Shown here: positions 261 through 23,999 of the stretch, one piece after another
How the letters are laid out: each line of letters opens with the position of its first letter
How positions within the stretch are numbered: position 1 is the stretch's first letter
IMG/VR virus record: IMGVR_UViG_3300031785_001144
Span: 1 to 23,999 of that record
Reading direction: 5' to 3' (one strand)
Source of the DNA: a virus
Length of the DNA stretch: 23,999 bases
Position numbers and translations under genes: made by a program
The notes under the pieces: generated by a model
The model's input: the letters and a program-made list of their open reading frames with translations, nothing else
Told to the model about the DNA's origin: nothing
The model's database searches: none

Positions 261-3200
261 TTATGATGCGTATAGCCAGACTGTCTTGGCGTTAATAGTT
301 ACGTCGGTTGAGTCGGTGCCATCGTCAGCAGCCCCTACAAGTTCCCCGACAAAATTTAGTTTAGACCTGACGGTGCTTACATCGGTGCCTTCATCCTGAA
401 TTGTGTGGCCTCCACCGCCACCGCCACCACCGCCAGAAGACCCCGGCTCAAAGTTACCTGTGGACGAGTTATACACCAAAGTCTGCTGGTGTGACAGCCC
501 GCTTAAATCAACGTCAGACAAATCCCCAACAGAAGCTGCGCCGATCCTTGCGTCAACCCTAGCAGAAGTATGATAGAGGTTGGTGGAGCCTTCAGTCAGG
601 TTGTCCGTGGTCTTTGTACCCAGCCTTGTATCCCACCTAGAGTCTGTGTAGTAGAGATTACTGGAGCCTTCGGTAAGGTTGTCTGTAGTCTTAGTACCAA
701 GCCTCGTATCCCACCTTGCATCTGTGTAGTAAAGGTTGCTAGAGCCTTCAGTCAGATTGTCAGTGGTCTTTGTGCCAAATCGCGTATCCCAGCGTGCATC
801 GGTGTAGTAAAGGTTGGCACTGCCCTCGGTCAGGTCGTCAGTGTCAGAAGAGGTTTCATCCAGCAGCTTATGCCAGTTACCTCCGTGCGCGAAGTAGCCC
901 TTGCCCGTGCCGTGGACATGCGCGAACATGCCGTGGTAGGTGGAAGCACTAGGCAGATTGGCTTCAGCTGTGTAGACATTGGAGAAAAGTATCTTACCAG
1001 TGGTGGTAATATCATTGCTCCCCATGTTGAGGCTGCTTCCGGTTACAGCGGATATAGCCCTAGCGTCTGTATGATATATGTTGCTGCTGCCCTCAGTGAG
1101 GTTGTCAGTGGTCTTTGCGCCCAGCCTCGTGTCCCAACGCGAATCGGTGTAATAGAGGTTGCTGCTCCCTTCGGTTACATCATCAGTAGTCTTGGCACTT
1201 AACCTCGTGTCCCACCTGCTGTCTGTGTAATACAGGTTACTGCTGCCCTCTGTTAAATCATCAGTGCTCTTCGCGCTTAGCCGTGTGTCCCACCTAGAGT
1301 CCGTGTAGTACAGGTTGCTGCTACCCTCATACACGTCATCCGTAGTCTTGGTGCTGAGCCTCGTATCCCACCTGCTGTCCGTGTAATAGACGTTGGTGCT
1401 ACCCTCTGTTAAATCGTCTGTGGTCTTAGTGCCTAGCCTCGTGTCCCACCTGCTGTTCGTGTAGTATAGATTGGAGCTGCCCTCCGTCAGGCCGTCAGTG
1501 TCTACTGGGATCGGCTTATAGGTTGAGCCATCATTAGTGAACTCCCACCTGTCACTGGACTCGTTCCATCTGAGCGTGGTATTGGTGCCAGTCCCGCGCT
1601 CCACCTCAATGCCAGCATTCTCTGTGGGGGAGCCAGTCTCCTCAGCGTTGAGGAGCATTATATTGTCGCCAATGTTAACCTGCTGAGTGTCCTTGGTTAA
1701 GGTGGTGCCGTGGACTGTCAGATTGTTGGCTACGAAGTTCTCTGTAGAGCTGCCACCCTTAGGATGGAACCTAGTATCAAGGTCTGTGGTTGAGAACTGA
1801 CCATTACTGTTGTCGTAAGACTGCAGCACAACTCCGTTGGAGTTTGAGCTGCTAGTGAGGGATGCCTGCGCCCGTGCGTTAGTGTGGTAGAGATTAGTGC
1901 TACCCTCTGTTAAGTTGTCGGTGGTCTTAGTGCCTAGCCTCGTATCCCACCTAGCGTCAGTGTAGTACAGGTTGGACCCTTCAGACAGATCCCCGGTATC
2001 TTTGGTTCCGAGCCTCGTGTCCCAGCGTGCGTCTGTGTAATACAGGTTTGATGACCCCTCTGAAACATCGTCGGTAGTCTTAGCACTTAGCCGTGTATCC
2101 CAACGGGCATCAGTGTAGTAAAGGTTTGAACCCTCAGCTAGGTCCCCAGTGTCCTTGGTCCCCAGCCGTGTGTCCCAGCGTGCATCAGTGTAGTACAGGT
2201 TAGAAGACCCCTCAGAGAGGTTATCCGTTGTCTTTGTTCCCAGCCTTGTGTCCCAGCGTGCGTCCGTGTAGTAGAGATTTGAAGAACCTTCGGTGAGGTT
2301 GTCTGTGGTCTTGGTCCCTAATCGGGTATCCCAACGAGCATCGGTGTAGTACAAGTTAGTACCCTCAGACAGGTCTGATGTGCTCTTTGTTCCGAGCCTC
2401 GTATCCCATCTTGCGTCCGTGTAATAAAGGTTGGTGCCCTCAGATAGATCCGTGGTGCTGAAGTCACCCATATCAACCTTCAGCTGGGCTGTGTCGAAAT
2501 CCAACCCTGAGTTAGGCTTGATGTCTACGCTTATGGAGTAGGAGTTACCTGCGTCGTTGTAAGAACCCGTGATCCCGTCTCCGTCAGACAGGAGGTTGCT
2601 CAGCCTGTCGTCAACCCTCTCATCAGTGAAGTAAAGATTGGAGCTACCCTCAGCTACGTCATCCGTGGTCTTAGTGCCAAGCCTTGTGTCCCATCTGGCA
2701 TCTGTGTAGTAGATGTTCGTTGTGCCCTCAGCCACGTCATCAGTGGTCTTGGTGCCAAGCCTAGTGTCCCATCGAGCTTCCGTGTAATAGAGGTTGGAGC
2801 TACCCTCAGCGACTGTATCAGTGGTTATGGCCACATTCTCAAACTGAGAGGATGTGGAGTTGTACCTGATTATGTTGTCGTTCTGGATGTTGCTAATGAT
2901 TACATCCGACAAGCCGTTAAGGGCTGTGGGAACAGACGGGGCTGGCTCCCAGTTACTGGTAACAGAGTTCCAAGTATAAACATCACCGTTAGCCGGAACC
3001 TGATTTCCTATAACCCTGCCCATCAGGTGGCTGGCGTTCCAGTAAGCAGTGGCCGACCCTACCGCTTGGTGGGTTACGGTTGTGTTTATGGTTATGTTCT
3101 GGGAGAAATCAACCCCTGTAACCGAGCCCGTTGCATCCCCGGTCAGAGTTATGTCCTTGCCAGCAGCCAGCTTTGTGGCCGTGTCAGCGTTACCTGTCAG

Positions 3201-3626
3201 CGTGCCAGTAAGGCCGGAGCTGAACGTAGTGTGCTGGCTGAAGGTGTTTGCCGCATCGTTGTATACAATGTTGGTGGGGAGCTGCGATGCGTTTGCGACA
3301 CCTGAAAGCCCTGTAATAGGTATGTTAGCCTCGACAACATCGAAGTAAACATTGCCCGCGCTGCTTGTGATGCTTACTTTTGTAGAGGCAGCTTGGAGCG
3401 AAGTCAGGTTTGTGGGCGTGATGAAGTTCCCCACAGGAACCCACTTAAGGTAAGTGGCATCAGGCGTTACTAGGCTCTCGTCCCATACATAGATAGATGT
3501 AGACGCGCCAGAACCGGACTCCCTGTTCCTTCTCCAGAAATAGGACCTCCACTTTCCGTTAGCATTTGCATCCGGTACATTCGGAGATCCGTCAGACCTG
3601 TCATTGCTGACAACAAATGCCGACAT
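261..3626 (-). CDS. Large repeat-rich phage tail fibre
   Basis: This 1121-residue protein is probably the receptor-binding fibre or a long fibre shaft. Residues 1-70 match the neighbouring 101-residue protein (VSNDxSDGxPNVP, KWxSYxWRRN, TYLKWxxxGNFI). Residues ~130-190 contain LTGNADTATKL and LTGDATGSVTG, typical of phage fibre shafts. Residues 272-1032 carry 21 copies of a ~26-residue unit of the form LTEGSSNLYYTDARWDTRL, in four blocks separated by three unlike inserts. The third insert contains ASTYHGMFAHVHGTGKGYFA, which resembles aquatic phage fibres. The C-terminus has a nine-glycine run (408-434), then HTIQDEGTDV. The ATG directly follows the upstream TAA. Fibre identity is well supported; the receptor is unknown. 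Confidence 0.93.
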   Translation of the reverse strand: MSAFVVSNDRSDGSPNVPDANANGKWRSYFWRRNRESGSGASTSIYVWDESLVTPDATYLKWVPVGNFITPTNLTSLQAASTKVSITSSAGNVYFDVVEANIPITGLSGVANASQLPTNIVYNDAANTFSQHTTFSSGLTGTLTGNADTATKLAAGKDITLTGDATGSVTGVDFSQNITINTTVTHQAVGSATAYWNASHLMGRVIGNQVPANGDVYTWNSVTSNWEPAPSVPTALNGLSDVIISNIQNDNIIRYNSTSSQFENVAITTDTVAEGSSNLYYTEARWDTRLGTKTTDDVAEGTTNIYYTDARWDTRLGTKTTDDVAEGSSNLYFTDERVDDRLSNLLSDGDGITGSYNDAGNSYSISVDIKPNSGLDFDTAQLKVDMGDFSTTDLSEGTNLYYTDARWDTRLGTKSTSDLSEGTNLYYTDARWDTRLGTKTTDNLTEGSSNLYYTDARWDTRLGTKTTDNLSEGSSNLYYTDARWDTRLGTKDTGDLAEGSNLYYTDARWDTRLSAKTTDDVSEGSSNLYYTDARWDTRLGTKDTGDLSEGSNLYYTDARWDTRLGTKTTDNLTEGSTNLYHTNARAQASLTSSSNSNGVVLQSYDNSNGQFSTTDLDTRFHPKGGSSTENFVANNLTVHGTTLTKDTQQVNIGDNIMLLNAEETGSPTENAGIEVERGTGTNTTLRWNESSDRWEFTNDGSTYKPIPVDTDGLTEGSSNLYYTNSRWDTRLGTKTTDDLTEGSTNVYYTDSRWDTRLSTKTTDDVYEGSSNLYYTDSRWDTRLSAKSTDDLTEGSSNLYYTDSRWDTRLSAKTTDDVTEGSSNLYYTDSRWDTRLGAKTTDNLTEGSSNIYHTDARAISAVTGSSLNMGSNDITTTGKILFSNVYTAEANLPSASTYHGMFAHVHGTGKGYFAHGGNWHKLLDETSSDTDDLTEGSANLYYTDARWDTRFGTKTTDNLTEGSSNLYYTDARWDTRLGTKTTDNLTEGSSNLYYTDSRWDTRLGTKTTDNLTEGSTNLYHTSARVDARIGAASVGDLSDVDLSGLSHQQTLVYNSSTGNFEPGSSGGGGGGGGGHTIQDEGTDVSTVRSKLNFVGELVGAADDGTDSTDVTINAKTVWLYAS
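531..2813 (-). repeat. 21-copy, ~78-bp coding repeat in the fibre gene
   Basis: The region encodes 21 copies of a unit of about 26 residues: [LV]xEGSsNLYYTDaRWDTRLgtKtTDd. Seventeen copies keep WDTR. Copies fall into four blocks (3, 8, 6 and 4 copies). The last copy of each block is divergent: LYFTDERVDDRL in the first block, and LYHT with no WDTR in the other three. Some units in block two lack one residue (EGTNLYY or EGSNLYY instead of EGSSNLYY). The protein sequence is nearly invariant, while the DNA copies differ at many synonymous positions. That argues for selection on the protein rather than recent duplication. The unit probably forms a repeating trimeric beta structure in the shaft, which is inference. 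Confidence 0.92.
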
Positions 3627-8566: not shown

Positions 8567-10831
8567 TTATTGTAGGGGTTGGTTTGGGGGTGCGCCGCCG
8601 CCCTGAAGGACGCCAGCTATTTGTTGAATGTCCTGACTATTTTGCTGTACCGCTTGAGCTATTTGTTCAATAGCCTCAGGCGACATACCCCCAGCCCCCT
8701 CTAGCAAACTGTCACCTTCCTGACCCGGAGGAGCCTGCAGTCGCAGGTCCGTTGCGCCGAGCAGTCGGAAGATTTCATTAACAATCTCAAACACTTTGTC
8801 CTTAGGAATGTTAGGCAGAAGTATCTGAGACTGAGTAATGATTTGGAATAACTGAATCAAGTTCTGTGCCGACATTGTATTGAGGGCACGTTCAGAGCCA
8901 TCGCGGCTCGTAAAGATGTAGTCGTGTATAAGGTTGGATGTTGTGCCGACAATGGTTCTCCTAGTGCCGACTGAGCTAACTGCTTCATCCTCGTCTGGGA
9001 CGTATCGGAAACCAGCCTTCGCAATAACATCATCGGTGTATCTGTTAACCACTGGGAGGTACACCTCACTAGCACCCTTGGCTATCAGGCACTCGTAACA
9101 GATGCGCTTCATTGCAGCGCGACCCTCGTCGATTGATTCGCTGATGAAGTTGTATACAGACTCGGTGGTGTTGTTGATGATTGTTACTTCGGTTGCCGAT
9201 GTCTCCCGTGGGGCAGGTTGCCCTTGCTCCTGTGGAGACAGGGCCATGAGCCTTTCGGCAGTTGCCAGCAAGTTCTGTATGGACTGGAATATGGTTGTCA
9301 GCGCAGTGCTGGGTGAGCTCCTCACAACCTTGAAAACATTGTCCGACCTAGGATCAATGCCAAGATCCCTCAGCTTCTGGAACGATGCTTCGAGGACATG
9401 AGTGGAGGCGTAGAAGTTCTTGCCAGCCATCGTGTTCCTGAAGTCTTCAAGCACCTTCGCCCCCTCATCTGTGTCGGGGAATATGTCCGAGTTGATTACA
9501 GCCACGCTGAACAGGTCTGCCTTGGCAGTCTCAAGCAGCTGGGTCATCAGGTTGGTGAGCTGGTCTTGGTAAGGCATCAGCTCATGCGCCACTGACAGGT
9601 TGAGCAGCCGTGAGTCATTCTCGTTGAAGGAGAACACTGCAGCAGGTGTGCTTGGCATGATCTCCGCAAAGATGATTGTGTTATCGCCAGCCACCTTGAG
9701 GTGAATCCACACTGGGTACGGGTAGTCCCCTATGCCGAACTCGTTGGGGTTACACTTCCAGTAGTACTCACCCACGATAACCGAGGCGTCAGCCATCTTG
9801 CCTGAGTACCTGCCTACATTATTAACCCTGTCATTGTACGCTGATGGGTCCGCAATCGTTGATGCGGGGGTAATCTTTGTGTAGTGCTGGGTAAAGTAAT
9901 CAGAGAAGGTTACAAACACCGAGTCCTTCGCATCGCTGAAGCCAACAACGTCCCGGTTAAAGAATGCCGGGTTGTCCGCAATGTCACCGTAGCGTACCAC
10001 ATCCCAGAACCCGCAGTAGTTTGCTCCTGAGTCAGTGTTGATAGAGGTAAGCGGGTAGGCGTTATCCCAGAAAAGCCTTGAGGGGTGGGGAGTGATCCAC
10101 CCGAGGCCTTCTTTAGTAACCCTAGACACCTTGGGGATGGTTCCCTCAAAGCTGCCATCAGTCTTAAAGGCTTCAGCTACAGGGGATTTTGTCCACTGCA
10201 CATCCCTCTCCCAAGACGCACGGGGGAAAGCAACTGAGTGGCCGTAAAGGAACATGTCCCTAATGGCCTGAGTCTGGAAGTGCCTGTAGTCGAACTGGTC
10301 AGCCATGATGTCCATCCTTTGGGATAGAGCATCGGCCCTCAGCTTTCCTACAGGTCCGGTGGTGCGACTCTCATACTTAAAGAACGGGTACAGGTTGTTG
10401 TACTTGTTCACCTGTGCAGCAAGCCTGCGTGTAACAAACGACCTCACCAAGTTGACGTTGACCTCAAAGAATTTAGGCAGGTCGATGTCAACGATCTTGC
10501 CGCTCTCATCCCGCTTGGCGTACTGCTCAAGAGACTTCACTCCCTCAAGTGCTTTAGCGCATGACTTCATGTCGATGCGCTTCTGGGCGTACAGCACCAG
10601 AGGCATTGTGGTCTTGTTGATCGGGCTGGAATCCCAAGCCATGTCTACAGCACTGTATAGCTGGTGATTCCTGAGAGAGTAGGTCACATGCTCCGTCATC
10701 CGAGACGACACCATGTCCTCAATCTTCTCACGAATCTTGTGATCTGGGTTCTCTGTGTCGGTGCAGGTGAGTATCTTACGCAGGCGTTCGTTTGTAGTGC
10801 CAGCTTCCTTGAGGATGTCGAAGTCAATCAT
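8567..10831 (-). CDS. Portal protein
   Basis: This 754-residue protein is the likely dodecameric DNA gate at the capsid vertex, docking terminase during packaging. Evidence is mainly position (after terminase, before scaffold and capsid), size and composition. It has an N-terminal helical part with YSLRNHQLYSAVDMAWDSSP, a long central alpha/beta region (YPYPVWIHLKVAGDNTIIFA), a helical crown region (residues ~640-690) and a Gln-rich tail from ~705 (IEQIAQAVQQNSQDIQQIAG). Portal proteins of about 700-750 residues are common in short-tailed aquatic phages. The ATG overlaps the upstream TGA (ATGA), so translation is probably coupled. The SD is poor. Confidence 0.85.
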   Translation of the reverse strand: MIDFDILKEAGTTNERLRKILTCTDTENPDHKIREKIEDMVSSRMTEHVTYSLRNHQLYSAVDMAWDSSPINKTTMPLVLYAQKRIDMKSCAKALEGVKSLEQYAKRDESGKIVDIDLPKFFEVNVNLVRSFVTRRLAAQVNKYNNLYPFFKYESRTTGPVGKLRADALSQRMDIMADQFDYRHFQTQAIRDMFLYGHSVAFPRASWERDVQWTKSPVAEAFKTDGSFEGTIPKVSRVTKEGLGWITPHPSRLFWDNAYPLTSINTDSGANYCGFWDVVRYGDIADNPAFFNRDVVGFSDAKDSVFVTFSDYFTQHYTKITPASTIADPSAYNDRVNNVGRYSGKMADASVIVGEYYWKCNPNEFGIGDYPYPVWIHLKVAGDNTIIFAEIMPSTPAAVFSFNENDSRLLNLSVAHELMPYQDQLTNLMTQLLETAKADLFSVAVINSDIFPDTDEGAKVLEDFRNTMAGKNFYASTHVLEASFQKLRDLGIDPRSDNVFKVVRSSPSTALTTIFQSIQNLLATAERLMALSPQEQGQPAPRETSATEVTIINNTTESVYNFISESIDEGRAAMKRICYECLIAKGASEVYLPVVNRYTDDVIAKAGFRYVPDEDEAVSSVGTRRTIVGTTSNLIHDYIFTSRDGSERALNTMSAQNLIQLFQIITQSQILLPNIPKDKVFEIVNEIFRLLGATDLRLQAPPGQEGDSLLEGAGGMSPEAIEQIAQAVQQNSQDIQQIAGVLQGGGAPPNQPLQ

Positions 10832-13633: not shown

Positions 13634-14692
13634 CTAATGGATGTACTCCTTGGTGGTGGACAGGTTGCTGTGCCCCATGTCCTTAGATACCTTCTGGCCT
13701 GCGAGTTCTTTCTGCAACCTTACAAGTACGCTGTTCTCCTCAGACCTGTATGCGTTGGTTGCGTAGGTGTGCCTGAGGCCGTGGAACGTGTGTTCGTACA
13801 GGCCCACGCTGTCGCATATCTCCCTAAACTCCGAGGAAAGTCGAGCCCTCCTTGTCTTGGTGCTGTAGATGGCCTTGTGCTTGGGGAAGATGTATACAGA
13901 ACTGGATATGGGTACGGCCATGAGTAGCTTGATTGTCCTCTCATCCATAGTGAACGGGCCTACCCTCTTGTCTCTCTTGTCTGTCCATACGGTTATGTCG
14001 GCACCGTCGAAACAGTCCAGCTCAAGGGAACAGATGTCCCCTAGTCGTAATCCGGTGGTGAAGGAGAGGGAGGTGGCGAACCTCCAGAATGGATCATCCG
14101 TGGCGGCAACTATTGCGGCGACGTTTGCCTCCGTGAATAGCTTCACCTCGCGCCTCTCCTTCTGGGCATGGCTAAGGTTGTCCATCGACACAACAACCCC
14201 CTCAGCCGGATTGCCCACACGCCAACCTTCGTCAGCGCAAAACTGTATAAAACTCCTGATAGAGGAAAGGTATGTCCCTCTAGTGCTGGCCTTGATACTC
14301 CAAGCGGGGTTGTTAACCCACTTGGAAACATGCTTAATGTCTACGAAAGACGGTGGCCTGTTGCCTAGCTTCATGTCCCTTATCCATTTGCCCACTGCTG
14401 TTAATGAGTTGTGCTCAGTCTTGGTTGATCGACCCTTGAGCCTCATCCTCTCAGCCCATCTCTCTAAGGCCTGTGTGAGATTGACCTTTTTGCCACCAAC
14501 TATCTTGGTTATGGCTTCAGCCGTCAACACTTGAGCCCTTGCAGCAAGCTCCAATTCCTCAAGTTTAGCTTCTTTTACCATCTTATTGGCAGTTATTTTG
14601 CATTTGCTACGGGTTGAAATCTCCTTCAGCCTTCCATCATTGCCTACGATTTTCGCATACCAGTAGCCATTACTCTTCTTTATTAACTTCAT
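13634..14692 (-). CDS. int: Tyrosine recombinase (phage integrase)
   Basis: This 352-residue enzyme would catalyse site-specific integration and excision. The N-terminus has a small arm-binding-like beta region (SNGYWYAKIVGNDGRLKEIS), followed by a core-binding SAM-like domain (~70-165). The catalytic domain shows the full set: R216 (TTGLRLGDICSLE), a Lys around 239 (WTDKRDKR), H304-x-x-R307 (HGLRHTYAT), H341 (MGHSN) and nucleophile Y350 (TTKEYIH). Only two residues follow the tyrosine, an unusually short tail; in the +1 frame a tail-like SPELKSKIETA follows immediately. It overlaps the coiled-coil gene upstream by 23 bases. Placement directly before terminase, in the same operon direction, is unusual, since integrases normally sit near regulatory genes. 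Confidence 0.93.
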   Translation of the reverse strand: MKLIKKSNGYWYAKIVGNDGRLKEISTRSKCKITANKMVKEAKLEELELAARAQVLTAEAITKIVGGKKVNLTQALERWAERMRLKGRSTKTEHNSLTAVGKWIRDMKLGNRPPSFVDIKHVSKWVNNPAWSIKASTRGTYLSSIRSFIQFCADEGWRVGNPAEGVVVSMDNLSHAQKERREVKLFTEANVAAIVAATDDPFWRFATSLSFTTGLRLGDICSLELDCFDGADITVWTDKRDKRVGPFTMDERTIKLLMAVPISSSVYIFPKHKAIYSTKTRRARLSSEFREICDSVGLYEHTFHGLRHTYATNAYRSEENSVLVRLQKELAGQKVSKDMGHSNLSTTKEYIH

Positions 14693-15457: not shown

Positions 15458-16453
15458 TCAAACTCTTTCCGCGTTTTGTGAGAACAGCTTACGGTTTTTC
15501 TTGGCTAAATCATTGTCGGCCCACACGCCCCCTATGGAGGCTATGAATTTACCTCCCTTAGCCCTGTTTGTGCTCTCAAGAACTATCCTTAGGTTGTCCT
15601 GATGGTGTGCTCCCCCCAGAACAAGTGGTATCTTATGATCCACTTCGTACTTTTTGCCCGTCCTTTCCCGCTTCCTAAGGCATCTAATATATATTGCGTC
15701 CACTTTATCCATGTCTGTGCTTGGCAGAACAGCAGCCTTCATCCTTTTGCAGTATCGGATTGAGTTTAACTTAGCTATCTCTCTGTGCCTTTCCGGGGAT
15801 TCGAGCTTCCTTTTAAAGTAGGCTTTAGATTGCCTGAGCTTTAGCTCCGCTTTGTTCTTCAGCCTGTATTTCCTATCATACTTTCTTTTCTTTTCTTTCC
15901 CTGCCTTAGCCCTCTTTCTATCATAAGATCTTCTACGTTCCTTCTGGCAATCTTCGCATCTAACTTTCTTATGAAACCCGAAGAACTCTTTACCGCAATC
16001 AGCGCACTTAATGTTTAAGTAATCTCTGCAAGGAGTCACCTCCCTCCACTTTTTGTAAGATCCTCTTTGAACTTTGTTAATGTGTGCTTTCGAGCACGGC
16101 TCACACCTCTTGGTTGCGTAGTGTGCTACAAATTCCTTATTGCAGTCGGGGCAGGTTATTCTTCTGTGCTTCTTGGGCAGGTTTCCGTTTTCTCTTTTGT
16201 GCTTTTCAGCCCAGAATCTTAGCATTCTTTCTCTATCCAGTTTCTTAGCCCTGACCTCACTGCATTTCTTGCATCTTTTCTGGTATCGGTGTGACGGAGG
16301 GGCCGTGAAGCTGGCACCACAGTCTACGCATTCCCTTTTAACACGCTTAGGTGGCGGCTTGTTTCTTCCACCGCATTCATTGCATCTCTTAGCATTTGGG
16401 TGAGCCTTAAAAGAGCATCCGCATACAGTGCATACTTTCTCTTTATATGTCAT
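15458..16453 (-). CDS. HNH endonuclease with four zinc-binding repeats
   Basis: The product is 331 residues. Four Cys4 modules come first: C8/C11-C24/C27, C42/C45-C61/C64, C101/C104-C117/C120 and C150/C153-C166/C169, each of the form CxxC-x12-15-CxxC with a preserved F or FxA after the first pair. A very basic helical linker follows (~170-240). The HNH nuclease lies near the end: VDH at 271-273 with catalytic His 273, HH at 283-284 and N287 (HHQDNLRIV). Such free-standing enzymes in phages are often homing endonucleases; others act with terminase at cos sites. AAGGAGG precedes the start, which follows the upstream stop directly. Codons are richer in A and T than in the structural genes, hinting at later acquisition. 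Confidence 0.87.
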   Translation of the reverse strand: MTYKEKVCTVCGCSFKAHPNAKRCNECGGRNKPPPKRVKRECVDCGASFTAPPSHRYQKRCKKCSEVRAKKLDRERMLRFWAEKHKRENGNLPKKHRRITCPDCNKEFVAHYATKRCEPCSKAHINKVQRGSYKKWREVTPCRDYLNIKCADCGKEFFGFHKKVRCEDCQKERRRSYDRKRAKAGKEKKRKYDRKYRLKNKAELKLRQSKAYFKRKLESPERHREIAKLNSIRYCKRMKAAVLPSTDMDKVDAIYIRCLRKRERTGKKYEVDHKIPLVLGGAHHQDNLRIVLESTNRAKGGKFIASIGGVWADNDLAKKNRKLFSQNAERV

Positions 16454-19165: not shown

Positions 19166-19390
19166 TTAATACTCCATTACTTTTACCTCTGATTCTGTTT
19201 CTATCCATACCTTAGCCCCGCAACTCAGCGGTTTGTCAGGGCTGTATACAACTCTGCAAGGGCCACTGATGTCCACACTGTGTGCATAGTCATTAGACTT
19301 GTACGTCTTCACAGTTAGGACTGGCTCCCTCTCTCCCGTCTTGCTGTTTGATTTTATTATGTGCTGATTCACATGAACAACGGTCTTCAT
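19166..19390 (-). CDS. Small conserved beta protein of unknown function
   Basis: The product is 74 residues, beginning MKTVVHVNQHIIKSNSKTGE, then REPVLTVKTYKSNDYAHSVD and PCRVVYSPDKPLSCGAKVWIE. The strong regular pattern (HVNQH, KTGEREPV, SNxYAHxVxIxGP, VVYxPDKPLSCGAxVWIET) looks like a well-conserved family that I recall from mobile elements with no assigned role. AGGCAAGG lies four bases upstream of the ATG. It is predicted to be all beta with conserved His, Cys and Asp. It overlaps the preceding small frame by 98 bases; this one is the better supported of the two. Confidence 0.75.
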   Translation of the reverse strand: MKTVVHVNQHIIKSNSKTGEREPVLTVKTYKSNDYAHSVDISGPCRVVYSPDKPLSCGAKVWIETESEVKVMEY

Positions 19391-19509: not shown

Positions 19510-20346
19510 TCAAATTAACACCTCTCTTTCTGCGTTGATCTTTTCTATATCCTTGAGGATGTGGAACTTATGCAGCTGTTCCTGCATTGGTTTCATGTAG
19601 TGCTCCACATCGTACTTCCCGCGAGTTGCAGTAAGCTCTTGCCCACTAAGCATCTTGGAGGTGAGCTTCATCATCAGCTTGTCAGGTATAACACACTGCT
19701 CTGGAAGTGGTACTCCCAGAATCATCCTCTGCTGCCACCTATCATTGACCTCTTTAAGGAGGTCTCTCATCGCCTTAAATGTATACTTCACACTCCTTAG
19801 CGGCTCTTGCCAGTAATCTTCACCGACCCCTCTGGTCGTGCTGAAGTACATATCATAGTTCAGATTGTCCATATCAACAGTGTATGTCATCTCATCACTG
19901 TCAGGCTTCTTGCGCCTCTTGAAGAAATCATCAGCTTCCACGGGAATCACCCAAGGCTTTGGCTCAACCTCAGGATCGTAACTATTCCTGATGTAGGAGA
20001 TAAGCAAGTTATTCAGCCTGTCGTAGGCGTTTGAATGGTCTCCCGTAAGGACTGGATCAAATGGCTCACGAGAATACCGACACTCGCCATCCCACACATG
20101 ATCCATCTTGGGGTGATCGTACTTGTCCTGCCACAACATCATGTAGTACCGCCTTCCGTTGTACCTGATGCCCTTCAGCTTGCCTATCTGAAGGTTGGTT
20201 GCCGGATCAATGAAGTCTCCTTCACCGTTGAAGAAAACCTGAGGGCCTAAGTTCATGCACTGAACGTCACCGCCCGAAACCACATCAACAAAAGCTCTCG
20301 GAGAGTTTAGTGAGTGGTCAACGATCTTACTTGTATTAAGCTCCAT
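19510..20346 (-). CDS. 278-residue unknown protein in the ATPase/VWA operon
   Basis: The product is 278 residues from the ATG at 20346, where AAAGGA has an eight-base spacing; the ATG two codons earlier has only two. It overlaps the upstream gene by 11 bases. The first part is beta-like (MELNTSKIVDHSLNSPRAFV; GIRYNGRRYYMMLWQDKYD), with many Trp, Tyr and Asp residues. The C-terminal third is helical (TFKAMRDLLKEVNDRWQQRM). It has no signal peptide, membrane segment or nucleotide-binding loop. Tight coupling to the AAA+ and VWA genes suggests it may act with them, perhaps as substrate or adaptor, which is only inference. The family is not recognised. Confidence 0.65.
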   Translation of the reverse strand: MELNTSKIVDHSLNSPRAFVDVVSGGDVQCMNLGPQVFFNGEGDFIDPATNLQIGKLKGIRYNGRRYYMMLWQDKYDHPKMDHVWDGECRYSREPFDPVLTGDHSNAYDRLNNLLISYIRNSYDPEVEPKPWVIPVEADDFFKRRKKPDSDEMTYTVDMDNLNYDMYFSTTRGVGEDYWQEPLRSVKYTFKAMRDLLKEVNDRWQQRMILGVPLPEQCVIPDKLMMKLTSKMLSGQELTATRGKYDVEHYMKPMQEQLHKFHILKDIEKINAEREVLI

Positions 20347-20956
20347 AATCATTTTCCTTTCGTTTTATCTCTGCGTGTAAGGCTTTATACAGGGAGCAAT
20401 GTTCTGTCCAATCGTCCATTGCCCACATGCAAGCCTTCGTGATTAGTTTTTCAGGTATGTCTACCTTGGCTCGCTTGAACCCAAACGAGTCCTCAAGCAG
20501 CCTTGCTGCCAGTATTAAGTCGTAAGCTCTTGATAGCTTCCCCATTATCCTAACCCTTGCCCTACCCTTTACCACATCCTCAAGCGCAATTTTGAGGCTG
20601 TCTATCTTTTCTTTGTGCGCCTTCTTCGGACTGTCTACATGGCTTGTGAGTATGGACTTTGATCCTATGAATGTCATCCTAGCAACCATCAAGCTGGCCA
20701 CAGGGGTCAGGCTTGAGACTAGGACTATCTGTTTGTAACCAGCCTCGGGGCACTTCATTGCTGCCCGTCTTGTGGCAGGGATTGGATACCTGACTGCAAC
20801 CTCTTGGTTGTCTTTGTACAGTATCTCATCCACGCAATGCACTCGACCAGCTCTCTTCGGAGCAGTTAACCTGCTCCTAGCGTAGTCTCCAACAAGCCTT
20901 GCCTCGTTTAATTTCAACATCTTGTTCCTTATGTTCTTTCTTTTGACTGGGTTCAT
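20336..20956 (-). CDS. 206-residue basic unknown protein in the ATPase/VWA operon
   Basis: The product is 206 residues and very basic at the N-terminus (MNPVKRKNIRNKMLKLNEAR). A mid-region hydrophobic segment (KQIVLVSSLTPVASLMVARM) is too broken for a sure membrane helix. Residues ~110-150 are Lys/Arg-rich helices (PKKAHKEKIDSLKIALEDVV). The C-terminal part contains ACMWAMDDWTEHCSLYKALH. Its ATG shares a base with the upstream TGA (TGATG), so it is translated with the 78-residue gene. No catalytic motif is recognised. Like its neighbours, it may belong to the AAA+/VWA unit, but only position says so. Confidence 0.65.
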   Translation of the reverse strand: MNPVKRKNIRNKMLKLNEARLVGDYARSRLTAPKRAGRVHCVDEILYKDNQEVAVRYPIPATRRAAMKCPEAGYKQIVLVSSLTPVASLMVARMTFIGSKSILTSHVDSPKKAHKEKIDSLKIALEDVVKGRARVRIMGKLSRAYDLILAARLLEDSFGFKRAKVDIPEKLITKACMWAMDDWTEHCSLYKALHAEIKRKENDYGA

Positions 20957-21192
20957 CAGTTGTCCCTGAACCTGTCACGCAGCTTGCGCTCTCTTTCCAG
21001 CGCGTCCTCAAGCTCTGACCCAAGGTGAACAATCACCTTCAGTAAGTTGATGATGGAATCAATGCACTTATCGTTCCTTGTCATCAGGTTTAGTCTCACT
21101 GTGCTTGGGTTCAGTCGCTCTATTTCTTTAGCGACAGTTAGTATTGCCTCTTGCACCTCTTCAGAGGTGGGAGGTGCTTCATCTGGTATCAT
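20956..21192 (-). CDS. 78-residue helical protein coupled to the VWA gene
   Basis: The product is 78 residues from the ATG at 21192, which forms ATGA with the VWA stop; the longer frame starting at 21240 lies inside the VWA gene. It is mostly helical and charged (SEEVQEAILTVAKEIERLNP; IINLLKVIVHLGSELEDALE), ending in a basic-acidic helix (RERKLRDRFRDN). This looks like a small coiled-coil adaptor. Four-base overlap implies fixed stoichiometry with the VWA protein. The family is not recognised. Confidence 0.65.
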   Translation of the reverse strand: MIPDEAPPTSEEVQEAILTVAKEIERLNPSTVRLNLMTRNDKCIDSIINLLKVIVHLGSELEDALERERKLRDRFRDN

Positions 21193-22469
21193 TGATTTAT
21201 TACCACTACCTCTCCGAAGGGCGGCTCGAATGAGCGGCACTTACTGGTCAGTGCCCACAGTACAGGCAGGCCGGGATCGTAGTCATAGTCGTCGCAGTAC
21301 CCGTCTGTTAGGTACACCACACACTTGGCGTTGATCTCGTTCTCCTCTATGTAGTCGAACACAGGCTTGTACATCGTACCGCCACACCCTGTTGGTTTGA
21401 ACTCATCTGCGTCAGATACATCCTGCTCATGCACTTCTGTATCTGCCCACAGCACCTTGATCGTAGGGTCTTTGCCGTCCTGTTCAAGCTCACGCATCAC
21501 ACCAACCACCTCGGACAGTACGTCGTTCATGTCTTTCTCTGACATAGAGCCAGAGGTGTCTACACCGAACACGATGTCTCCGAACGTCTCATTCTTGAGA
21601 CCGGGCATGATGATCCCGCTCTGTATGAACCGCTTGTTGGGGAACCTGAATGAGTAGTCACTGCGAGCGAAGTCTGACAGGAACCTAGACAGATAGGCAC
21701 GCCAGTCTACCTTGGGTTCCATGATCTCCTCGACCAGTCGTTCAATGCCAGCAGGTAGCTTGCCTTGCCGCTTGGCAGCGGTGACTGCTTCCTGAAGGGT
21801 GATCTTGACGTTCTCCTCTACCTCTCTCAGGTCTGACTCAGACATGGCTGATCCGTCATCGTTGGTAGGCGTCTCCACCTGACCCCACTGAGGTACTCCA
21901 TCGGGAGCCTTCTTCTCACCACCACCAGCGTCTTGCTGGCCTTGCTGCTGTGGCTGTGGCTGCTGCTGTTGTTGCTGGCCGTCTGACTCTTGATCATCTT
22001 GTCCTTGTCCTTGCTGATCGCAGTCACCCCCAGACCCTCCGCCTTGCGGAGATGGCCGACCCTCGGGCTGGTCAGGACACTGGAGCTGGCTGTATATCTG
22101 CTCAGCAGACATGTCTCTGTACTTGTCGTCGAGTAAGGCATCCTCTGGGAGGGTCAGCCCTGAATCAACGATGATCGAGTTGATTGCGTAGTCGCAAGCT
22201 ACGTTCCACTTGAAGTGGTCTCGTGATCCAGATCTGGTGTGGTGCAATGATGCAACGTGCATCACCTCATGGCACAGCACACCGACAAGCTCGTCAGGCG
22301 TAAGGGACTCAACAAAGTCCGTGTTGTACCGCAGATGTATGCCATCTGTGGACATTGTTGGCCGATCATTGCACTCAATCCTCTTGAGGTTGTATAGGAT
22401 GGTCGCATAGAACGGCTCGGCATTGAGCACTGCAGTCAATGCCTTCTGCATCTTGGTTGCTACTATCAT
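21189..22469 (-). CDS. VWA protein with metallopeptidase-like N-terminal domain
   Basis: The product is 426 residues from the ATG at 22469; a longer frame to 22574 runs into the ATPase gene and is rejected. The N-terminal domain has a zincin-type HEVMH at 67-71 followed by WNVACDYAINSIIVDSG, as in the putative metallopeptidase domain often fused to VWA domains (DUF2201-type). A flexible Gln/Gly-rich linker (142-182) follows. The C-terminal VWA domain has an intact metal-ion-dependent adhesion site, DTSGSMS, at 304-310, and a late YLTDGYCDDYDYDPG. Such proteins pair with MoxR AAA+ ATPases, encoded here four bases upstream. The target is unknown. Both metal sites look intact. Confidence 0.88.
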   Translation of the reverse strand: MIVATKMQKALTAVLNAEPFYATILYNLKRIECNDRPTMSTDGIHLRYNTDFVESLTPDELVGVLCHEVMHVASLHHTRSGSRDHFKWNVACDYAINSIIVDSGLTLPEDALLDDKYRDMSAEQIYSQLQCPDQPEGRPSPQGGGSGGDCDQQGQGQDDQESDGQQQQQQPQPQQQGQQDAGGGEKKAPDGVPQWGQVETPTNDDGSAMSESDLREVEENVKITLQEAVTAAKRQGKLPAGIERLVEEIMEPKVDWRAYLSRFLSDFARSDYSFRFPNKRFIQSGIIMPGLKNETFGDIVFGVDTSGSMSEKDMNDVLSEVVGVMRELEQDGKDPTIKVLWADTEVHEQDVSDADEFKPTGCGGTMYKPVFDYIEENEINAKCVVYLTDGYCDDYDYDPGLPVLWALTSKCRSFEPPFGEVVVINQ

Positions 22470-22473
22470 AGTC

Positions 22474-23499
22474 TTAGGTGTACATACCAAGTACGTCTTG
22501 GTGTTTAAGTGCCCACTCTTGGAAGGCCTTGGTCTTTGTGAATGGTGCTTTGTCACCATGCTTGACGATGGCATCCTTGATGCACATCACACTGAACTCT
22601 GCTCCAACTCGGTCAAGGTACTCCTTGATACCCGCAATGGTCTTGCCATCGCATCGGTGGGCAAGTGCCCCCATCAAACCGTACAGTACGCTAACCTCAT
22701 CGGCAGCAGGTACAGGTGCAGTCTTGGGATTCTTGATGCACTCATCAGGGTCAGGCATCTTCTCCATCAGTCGATAGAATGCTAGGAACTCTGACGCAGC
22801 AGCATCACCCACATCACCAGCAAGTAACTCCATACCTGTCACGTCAATGGATACCTTCTTGGCAAGGCGAGACCAGTTGCGTGGCGTCGGAGTATTCTTC
22901 ATGTCTCGACTAGGCTTGAACGCATTGAGCAGCTCAGTCTTGAACCTCAGGAAGGCGGGGACAGATACTGGCATCCAGTCCTGCTCATAAGCCCATCCAC
23001 ACCAGTCATCAATGTGTGGCTCAAGGTGGAGGATAGTAGAGCGACCCTTGAGTGGCTCAAGCAGGGAGCCAACCCCTGCCTTGTCCTCAGCCCTGTTGGT
23101 AGCACCCATGAACCACACATGGTCACTGATCTTGTGACCAGCCACCTGACGTTGCAGGAAGAGCTGCATGATAGCTGCTTGGGTTGCTGGCGTAGCCTGA
23201 CCCATGTCATCGAAGAATGCGATGGTGGGCTTGTCTGCTGTGATGAGGGACTCCAGATCCTCGTAAGGGAGGTGTCGTGCCTTGGCCTGACCTGTCTGGT
23301 CTTGGAAGGCAAACGGCTGACCCTTGTAGTCAGTGGGGTCACTGACTGAGGGATGGTACAGAATGACCTCGTGACCAATGTCTTTGGCCGCTGCGATAAC
23401 GGTGTCAGTTTTGCCAACACCGGGGCCAGCTTCTAGGATGATAGGCTCTCTGATTTGAGCCAGCTTAACGATACTGTCTTTGATCTCTGCGATTCTCAT
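22474..23499 (-). CDS. MoxR-like AAA+ ATPase
   Basis: The product is 341 residues. Walker A at 25-31 (GPGVGKT), Walker B at 95-98 (FFDD, with the second acidic residue as catalytic base), and sensor 1 around 132-136 (GATNR) are all intact. The segment after Walker A (ILYHPSVSDPTDYKGQPFAF) matches the MoxR style of substrate loop. The C-terminus (residues 200-341) is helical and contains RNWSRLAKKVS, a likely sensor-2 or lid region. MoxR ATPases remodel partner proteins together with a VWA protein, which is encoded next. Its ATG overlaps the stop of the edge gene by one base (TAATG). Phages with such pairs are known, but the biological role is not settled. Confidence 0.92.
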   Translation of the reverse strand: MRIAEIKDSIVKLAQIREPIILEAGPGVGKTDTVIAAAKDIGHEVILYHPSVSDPTDYKGQPFAFQDQTGQAKARHLPYEDLESLITADKPTIAFFDDMGQATPATQAAIMQLFLQRQVAGHKISDHVWFMGATNRAEDKAGVGSLLEPLKGRSTILHLEPHIDDWCGWAYEQDWMPVSVPAFLRFKTELLNAFKPSRDMKNTPTPRNWSRLAKKVSIDVTGMELLAGDVGDAAASEFLAFYRLMEKMPDPDECIKNPKTAPVPAADEVSVLYGLMGALAHRCDGKTIAGIKEYLDRVGAEFSVMCIKDAIVKHGDKAPFTKTKAFQEWALKHQDVLGMYT

Positions 23500-23999
23500 T
23501 AGTAAACACCTTTCATAGCGTCTTGTATTTTATCTATCTGCGCCCTTGCCTCGATAGCTTTCTGCTCTCGAAGCGATGGGTTGTTTCGTAACTCGGAGCT
23601 TCCATGTGTCAACAGCGTGGATTTCACACTGTTCGCAAGCTCCTCAATGTTCTTGTCTCCTGTTAGGTTTAGCTTGGGTATTCTATTGGCAAGCTCCTCA
23701 ATCTTGGTGAGTGTGGTTGTCTGGAACTTGGGCTTGATAACCCTGACGTTCCCATCCTTGTCAACCTTCTCGTAAGGTTGCTTGGCCATTGCCTCCTCGA
23801 ATGCTTTGGTCAGCTCATTCAGCTGCTCATACAGGTTTGTATGCGCTTGCTTGAACTGTTGCTCATGCCGAGCGTCACACTGTGCCTTGAGTTCCCGCAT
23901 GATCTCGTCACTGGCATCGAATGCGAAGTGCTCACCCTTTGGTATGGGGTGATACCTGACATCCATCGAGAACTTGGCAGGGATCTCACTCACATCAGG
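23499..23999 (-). CDS. Unknown helical protein, N-terminus possibly beyond window edge
   Basis: The frame is open to the right edge (167 codons), so the true start may lie outside. Within the window a GTG at 23993 (VSEIPAKFSMD) and an ATG at 23966 (MDVRYHPIPKGEHFAFDASD) are possible starts. The protein is helical and charged (KEAxxELKAQCDARHEQQ-like, then TKAFEEAMAKQPYEKVDKDG), with a C-terminal helix (EARAQIDKIQDAMKGVY). No catalytic motif is seen. Its stop overlaps the ATPase start by one base, so it belongs to the ATPase/VWA operon. The function is unknown. Confidence 0.6.
   Translation of the reverse strand, partial: PDVSEIPAKFSMDVRYHPIPKGEHFAFDASDEIMRELKAQCDARHEQQFKQAHTNLYEQLNELTKAFEEAMAKQPYEKVDKDGNVRVIKPKFQTTTLTKIEELANRIPKLNLTGDKNIEELANSVKSTLLTHGSSELRNNPSLREQKAIEARAQIDKIQDAMKGVY

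Follow-up and report, generated by a model that had tools for sequence, protein, structure and literature searches.

The minus-strand operon and its protein families

The 23,999-nucleotide window analysed here, which has the same length as the IMG/VR virus record that contains it (IMGVR_UViG_3300031785_001144), carries on its minus strand a run of six genes at positions 19510-23999, among them genes for a predicted MoxR-type AAA+ ATPase and a VWA/putative metallopeptidase protein. The original prediction, made from the sequence alone, described this run as a translationally coupled operon of the two enzymes and four unrecognised genes, and the run was recovered at the same positions with every junction exactly as described, namely TAATG, a 4-nt gap, ATGA, TGATG and an 11-nt overlap. 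Because the record ends at 23,999, the gene at its edge is cut by the contig end and is missing its N-terminal part. Position 19510 is not a clear stop for the operon at the other end; the next ATG (19508) follows one base further on, and the operon thus probably extends past 19510. The genes, all on the minus strand, are as follows:

23499-23999, minus: DUF3150-like third component (edge gene), by prediction; C-terminal 166 residues with no start, the N-terminal ~120 residues lying beyond the contig end
22474-23499, minus: predicted MoxR-type AAA+ ATPase, 341 residues; Walker A GPGVGKT, Walker B FFDD, PRNW motif; PHROG_1297
21189-22469, minus: predicted VWA/putative metallopeptidase protein (DUF2201), 426 residues; PF13203 and PF09967
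20956-21192, minus: 78-residue orphan, coupled by ATGA to the VWA gene; without relatives
20336-20956, minus: 206-residue orphan, coupled by TGATG; without relatives
19510-20346, minus: 278-residue orphan, coupled by an 11-nt overlap; without relatives

The conserved unit within this run is a three-gene module, consisting of DUF3150-like, MoxR AAA+ and metallopeptidase-VWA genes, rather than an enzyme pair plus four unknowns. The earlier recognition of the two enzymes as an AAA+/VWA remodelling pair was right. The product of 22474-23499, identified from its sequence as a MoxR-type AAA+ ATPase, matches PHROG_1297 (E=1.7e-59) and has homologues in 525 phage records, N4-like phages included, all at less than 60% identity by tblastn. 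In alignments the Walker A Lys, Walker B Asp, conserved Asn and Arg, and PR-W motif are kept across these homologues, that of the window included. The motifs of both enzymes had been called intact, which holds for Walker A (GPGVGKT) and for HEVMHVASLHH and DTSGSMS of the VWA protein, but Walker B reads FFDDMGQA, with the Glu of the usual DE replaced by Asp. The same Asp is found throughout the window's ATPase clade, and a single change suffices to account for it on a quick tree that places the window, on a long branch, inside a 79-row DD clade (support 99) and N4-like sequences in a separate clade (support 100). Nearly all DD-clade members with visible flanks carry DUF3150. Since the window ATPase falls outside the N4-like clade and lies next to a DUF3150 gene, the window pair is not classed as orthologous to N4 gp24/gp25.

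The product of 21189-22469, a predicted DUF2201 metallopeptidase-VWA protein, matches PF13203 (putative metallopeptidase; E=1.5e-53, 182.6 bits against a cut-off of 23.2) and PF09967 (VWA-like; E=1.5e-18, 67.6 bits against a cut-off of 26.4), and has homologues in 612 phage records, again all below 60% identity by tblastn. A VWA fold is present in its AlphaFold2 (AF2) model, PDB matches of the full model fall in the VWA half of the protein, and an M48 peptidase chain was matched weakly by profile (E=0.006). The window protein retains both HExxH and the D-S-S-T-D residues of a metal ion-dependent adhesion site (MIDAS; D-x-S-x-S plus a distal T and D). Every one of the 101 homologues that could be resolved keeps the five MIDAS residues, and the HE of HExxH has been lost in eight homologues (L022, L040, L058, L068, L079, L111, L112 and L012), with MIDAS intact wherever it is readable. 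This pattern argues that the strictest constraint on the protein is probably exerted at the metal-dependent docking site, rather than on peptidase chemistry. The PHROG label 'HNH endonuclease' was rejected for the window protein because Pfam gives DUF2201. PHROG_1314 and RefSeq products such as N4 gp25 bear the same label although they are DUF2201 metallopeptidase-VWA proteins, and a large PHROG family is thereby corrected.

By prediction, the edge gene encodes a divergent DUF3150 protein, of which the C-terminal half is present. The 166-residue fragment does not match PF11348 on its own in a Pfam search; it is found with E=5e-23 (77.7 bits) by a profile made solely from five plasmid homologues, and PF11348 is matched by 28 of 64 aligned members of its family (best E=1.7e-9). 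By BLASTP it matches a protein of cyanophage MinM2 that is annotated as DUF3150 and located between the ATPase and VWA genes. PF11348 alone, run over the phage records, gave no match, missing even the MinM2 protein, and a custom DUF3150 profile was therefore used for whole phage records. The predicted structure of DUF3150 (mean predicted local distance difference test score, pLDDT, 96) is mainly helical with two helices of more than 40 residues. A fold search with this model returned no PDB match at E<=0.001, and the rows it did give were generic helical bundles spanning residues 154-283; this does not in itself prove a new fold. Two conserved carboxylates of the family, D23 and D233, are candidates for contact with the MIDAS metal, and D233, which the window retains, may serve as its ligand. 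D156 was dropped as a candidate ligand, since His occupies that position in the window.

Distribution of the trio and of its neighbours

IMG/VR was scanned in two independent ways, the ATPase retrieving 80 loci and DUF3150 12, for 92 viral loci in all; the wide alignments, A2 and A4, diverged too much for scanning, and the narrower ones used in their place bias this viral set towards the DD clade. DUF3150, ATPase and VWA genes occur together in 78 of the 92 loci, on a single strand in 77 of these 78, with a median span of ~3.3 kb. This recurrence takes the point out of chance as a cause of the junction pattern, as far as the first three genes are concerned. All three are present in 67 of the 80 ATPase-seeded loci, which represent the DD clade, while the DUF3150-seeded loci hold the ATPase in 12 of 12 cases and the VWA gene in 11, the twelfth locus ending there. 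Fourteen viral loci lack the full trio; contig ends beside the genes found explain five, and in four more the sequence begins with the ATPase or a few bases from it, such that an upstream DUF3150 gene would be invisible. The commonest order is ATPase-DUF3150-VWA (57 viral loci), followed by DUF3150-ATPase-VWA, the order of the window (14), and ATPase-VWA-DUF3150 (7).

Outside viruses, the trio is carried by large burkholderial plasmids, and the middle gene of an ATPase-X-VWA run on burkholderial and other plasmids belongs to the edge-protein family. In Simplicispira (L018) the ATPase is not adjacent and is found several genes further upstream. Bacterial loci fetched by DUF3150 contain all three genes in 53 of 74 cases, and two others (L130 and L168) have DUF3150 with VWA, the DUF3150 gene standing at the contig edge. 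Comparing the distance matrices of the trio's proteins gives correlations of r=0.72, 0.50 and 0.69, a level reached in none of 2000 permutations and a mark of co-inheritance. Divergent DUF3150-like genes without the MoxR/DUF2201 pair also occur in Planctomycetes and Deltaproteobacteria (L171-L189); in most of the 11 such loci inspected a classical AAA ATPase of 470-590 residues is nearby, and in some DUF1257, SSB or a PD-(D/E)XK nuclease.

The suggestion that all four unrecognised genes are fixed partners of the pair survives for one of them. The edge gene recurs with the ATPase and VWA genes, and the 78-, 206- and 278-residue proteins never do, the pair occurring without all three in every relative examined. 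Nor is the association of the edge gene universal, as a search of 11 whole phage records with the custom profile found DUF3150 in MinM2 only, N4 and nine others carrying the pair without it. Relatives of the 78-, 206- and 278-residue proteins were sought among 50,697 phage records, by IMG/VR scans and across every open reading frame (ORF) of the fetched loci, and none was found; single-protein IMG/VR scans with these three, the VWA protein and the edge protein yielded no true relatives. The sole IMG/VR match of the 278-residue protein, L002, was judged spurious, lying within a portal-like ORF, itself downstream of a terminase-like one, with one short motif in common. The 206-residue protein has no significant family or PDB match and the 278-residue protein none at all, and the 78-residue protein gives a weak match to the PHROG_4691 excisionase family (E=0.0033). 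From their distribution these genes appear to be local passengers in the transcript or species-specific additions.

Proposed mechanism, rival readings and genomic setting

Work on CbbQO has shown that MIDAS mutants keep ATPase activity and lose substrate activation, the VWA protein acting as a substrate adaptor (PMC4660213). By analogy with this system, with RavA-ViaA and with midasin, we infer a mechanism in which the MoxR protein would form an ATP-driven ring, on which the VWA protein would dock, gripping through its MIDAS metal a carboxylate on DUF3150 itself or on a target that DUF3150 holds. ATP hydrolysis by the ring would then remodel the gripped protein. DUF3150 would accordingly be either a dedicated client of the machine or an adaptor bringing one, and we regard remodelling of DUF3150, or of a target brought by it, as somewhat the better bet. 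A bolder extension, which we put forward tentatively and with some doubt, is that DUF3150 may be a dedicated client or adaptor of mobile-element AAA+ machines in general, with an unnamed ternary class as the result, serving phages and plasmids in their early replication or establishment. It would be paired with at least three engines, possibly MoxR with DUF2201-VWA, a CbbQ-like AAA with a NorD-like VWA, and a classical AAA beside DUF1257.

Several observations weigh against DUF3150 as the client or adaptor of this machine. The edge protein of the window is without D156 and R158, each conserved in more than 90% of the family, and 19 of the 74 bacterial loci, with divergent DUF3150, show no MoxR/DUF2201 partner. 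DUF3150 is not a universal client of the pair, which N4 and many other phages carry without it, and even within the DD clade the viral records behind L048, L058 and L073 have no DUF3150 in their sequenced extent. The ATPase scan used DD Walker B patterns, and the co-occurrence counts hold for that clade rather than for all MoxR-VWA pairs; the correlated distance matrices, likewise, are evidence of co-inheritance and not of physical contact. DUF3150 is mentioned nowhere in the 5.39 million papers searched, an open-access subset, and no biochemistry on it was found, so that client, adaptor and regulator are indistinguishable.

By names that are readings of sequences and not profile matches, an SNF2/DEAD-like helicase lies downstream of the trio and on its strand in 25 of the 26 loci that have one, as do a primase-like gene (16 of 17) and a DnaB-like gene (14 of 15), and terminase-like (24) and portal-like (16) genes are all on the opposite strand. 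This placement upstream and on the strand of replication genes, together with carriage by plasmids, makes virion assembly a less favoured role than early replication or establishment. A more specific version, in which remodelling by the trio is directed at a replisome or recombination complex, DUF3150 forming the bridge to it, is compatible with the client/adaptor mechanism and supplies its target; the ssb, RecT and lambda-exonuclease genes 10-20 kb downstream in the region shown of plasmid pCAR1, and the SSB, PD-(D/E)XK nuclease and helicase-like neighbours in AAA/DUF3150 islands of Deltaproteobacteria, point the same way as the upstream position in viruses. Its support comes from gene context alone, no DNA-binding domain was recognised, and the neighbours in the window are unknown genes with an integrase ~5 kb away, leaving this version possible but rather doubtful.

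A role in assembling virions has been put forward for a homologous pair from a jumbo phage, ASV44729/ASV44728, a member of the family analysed here (locus L012; PMC7824862), and the trio of the window does lie upstream of structural genes on a common strand. The idea of an assembly chaperone, in which structural proteins are folded and processed by the pair and its peptidase domain, as suggested for jumbo phages and the tail of Acidianus two-tailed virus (ATV), is nevertheless difficult to reconcile with trio viruses in which the module shares the strand of replication genes and opposes terminase- and portal-like genes, with carriage of the trio by plasmids, or with loss of the putative peptidase HE in eight homologues, and we judge it unlikely. 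Another rival is a ternary conflict system, for defence or counter-defence, with DUF3150 as third component. A MoxR protein, a vWA protein and one dedicated third protein do follow the logic of MoxR-vWA-VMAP systems (PMC7159879), and the trio is carried by mobile elements among freely variable flanking genes. No PADLOC match was obtained, however, for either enzyme, for a full-length relative of DUF3150 or for any of the three orphans, VMAP profiles not having been compared directly; Pfam finds no effector domain on the core proteins, and the placement with replication genes is again discordant, making this explanation improbable.

The virus itself is without close relative among the 50,697 phage records. 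A 754-residue protein at 8567-10831, between terminase and putative scaffold/capsid genes, is a likely portal and matches none of those records. A tyrosine-type integrase (PHROG_1) at 13634-14692, just upstream of genes preceding the terminase, points to a temperate or integrating virus. Other features are a 1121-residue tail-fibre-like protein at 264-3626 with many near-identical EGSSNLYYTDARWDTRLGTKTTD-type repeats, a 331-residue protein at 15458-16453 with repeated CxxC zinc-ribbon-like motifs followed by an HNH/endonuclease VII-like domain, and, just downstream of the operon, a 74-residue gene at 19166-19390 that matches PHROG_8676 (E=1.7e-25) and is among the few small genes here with relatives.

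Comparison with known systems

The MoxR-VWA pair was already known; the third gene as a recurring component is not mentioned in the open-access literature searched. Hundreds of sequenced phages have N4 gp24/gp25 or their homologues, for which that literature gave no settled function. The conserved third gene, common to viruses and conjugative plasmids, is a concrete candidate for what the machine acts on or through, and it narrows tests to one binding partner.

The CbbQ-CbbO rubisco activase and RavA-ViaA combine, like the module, a MoxR motor with a MIDAS-bearing VWA adaptor, but they have known clients (rubisco and respiratory enzymes, respectively) and are without DUF3150. N4 gp24/gp25 and the pairs of other Schitoviridae consist, as in the window, of a homologous MoxR ATPase and a DUF2201 metallopeptidase-VWA protein encoded by adjacent genes; N4 differs in that its record is without DUF3150, its Walker B is DE as opposed to DD, and its ATPase falls in a separate, fully supported clade. 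A 2021 comparative study noted a MoxR-VWA pair with a fused peptidase domain in jumbo phages and proposed its role in virion assembly (PMC7824862). The two-protein architecture of these group 2.2 jumbo phages, exemplified by Agrobacterium phage Atu_ph07 (ASV44729/ASV44728), is that of the window, but it was described as a pair only and DUF3150 is not in the record.

Plasmids offer parallels to the whole trio. All three components are homologous on Cupriavidus, Burkholderia and Paraburkholderia plasmids, whose ATPases are 37-39% identical to that of the window for the DD-type plasmids; of five plasmids examined, four have a DD Walker B as in the window and one (L016) has DE, and their gene order, ATPase-DUF3150-VWA, differs from the DUF3150-ATPase-VWA of the window. 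On pCAR1 (L115:8203-12341, the ORF101-103 region), genes for an AAA protein, a PF11348 protein (E=8e-92) and a VWA protein are consecutive and parallel the trio, although the VWA protein is NorD/CoxE-like, the AAA protein has a CbbQ_C domain, and the DUF3150 protein is only remotely similar to that of the window. According to the 2009 pCAR1 paper, the ORF100-103 region is conserved on R478, Rts1, SXT and R391 (PMC2642839).

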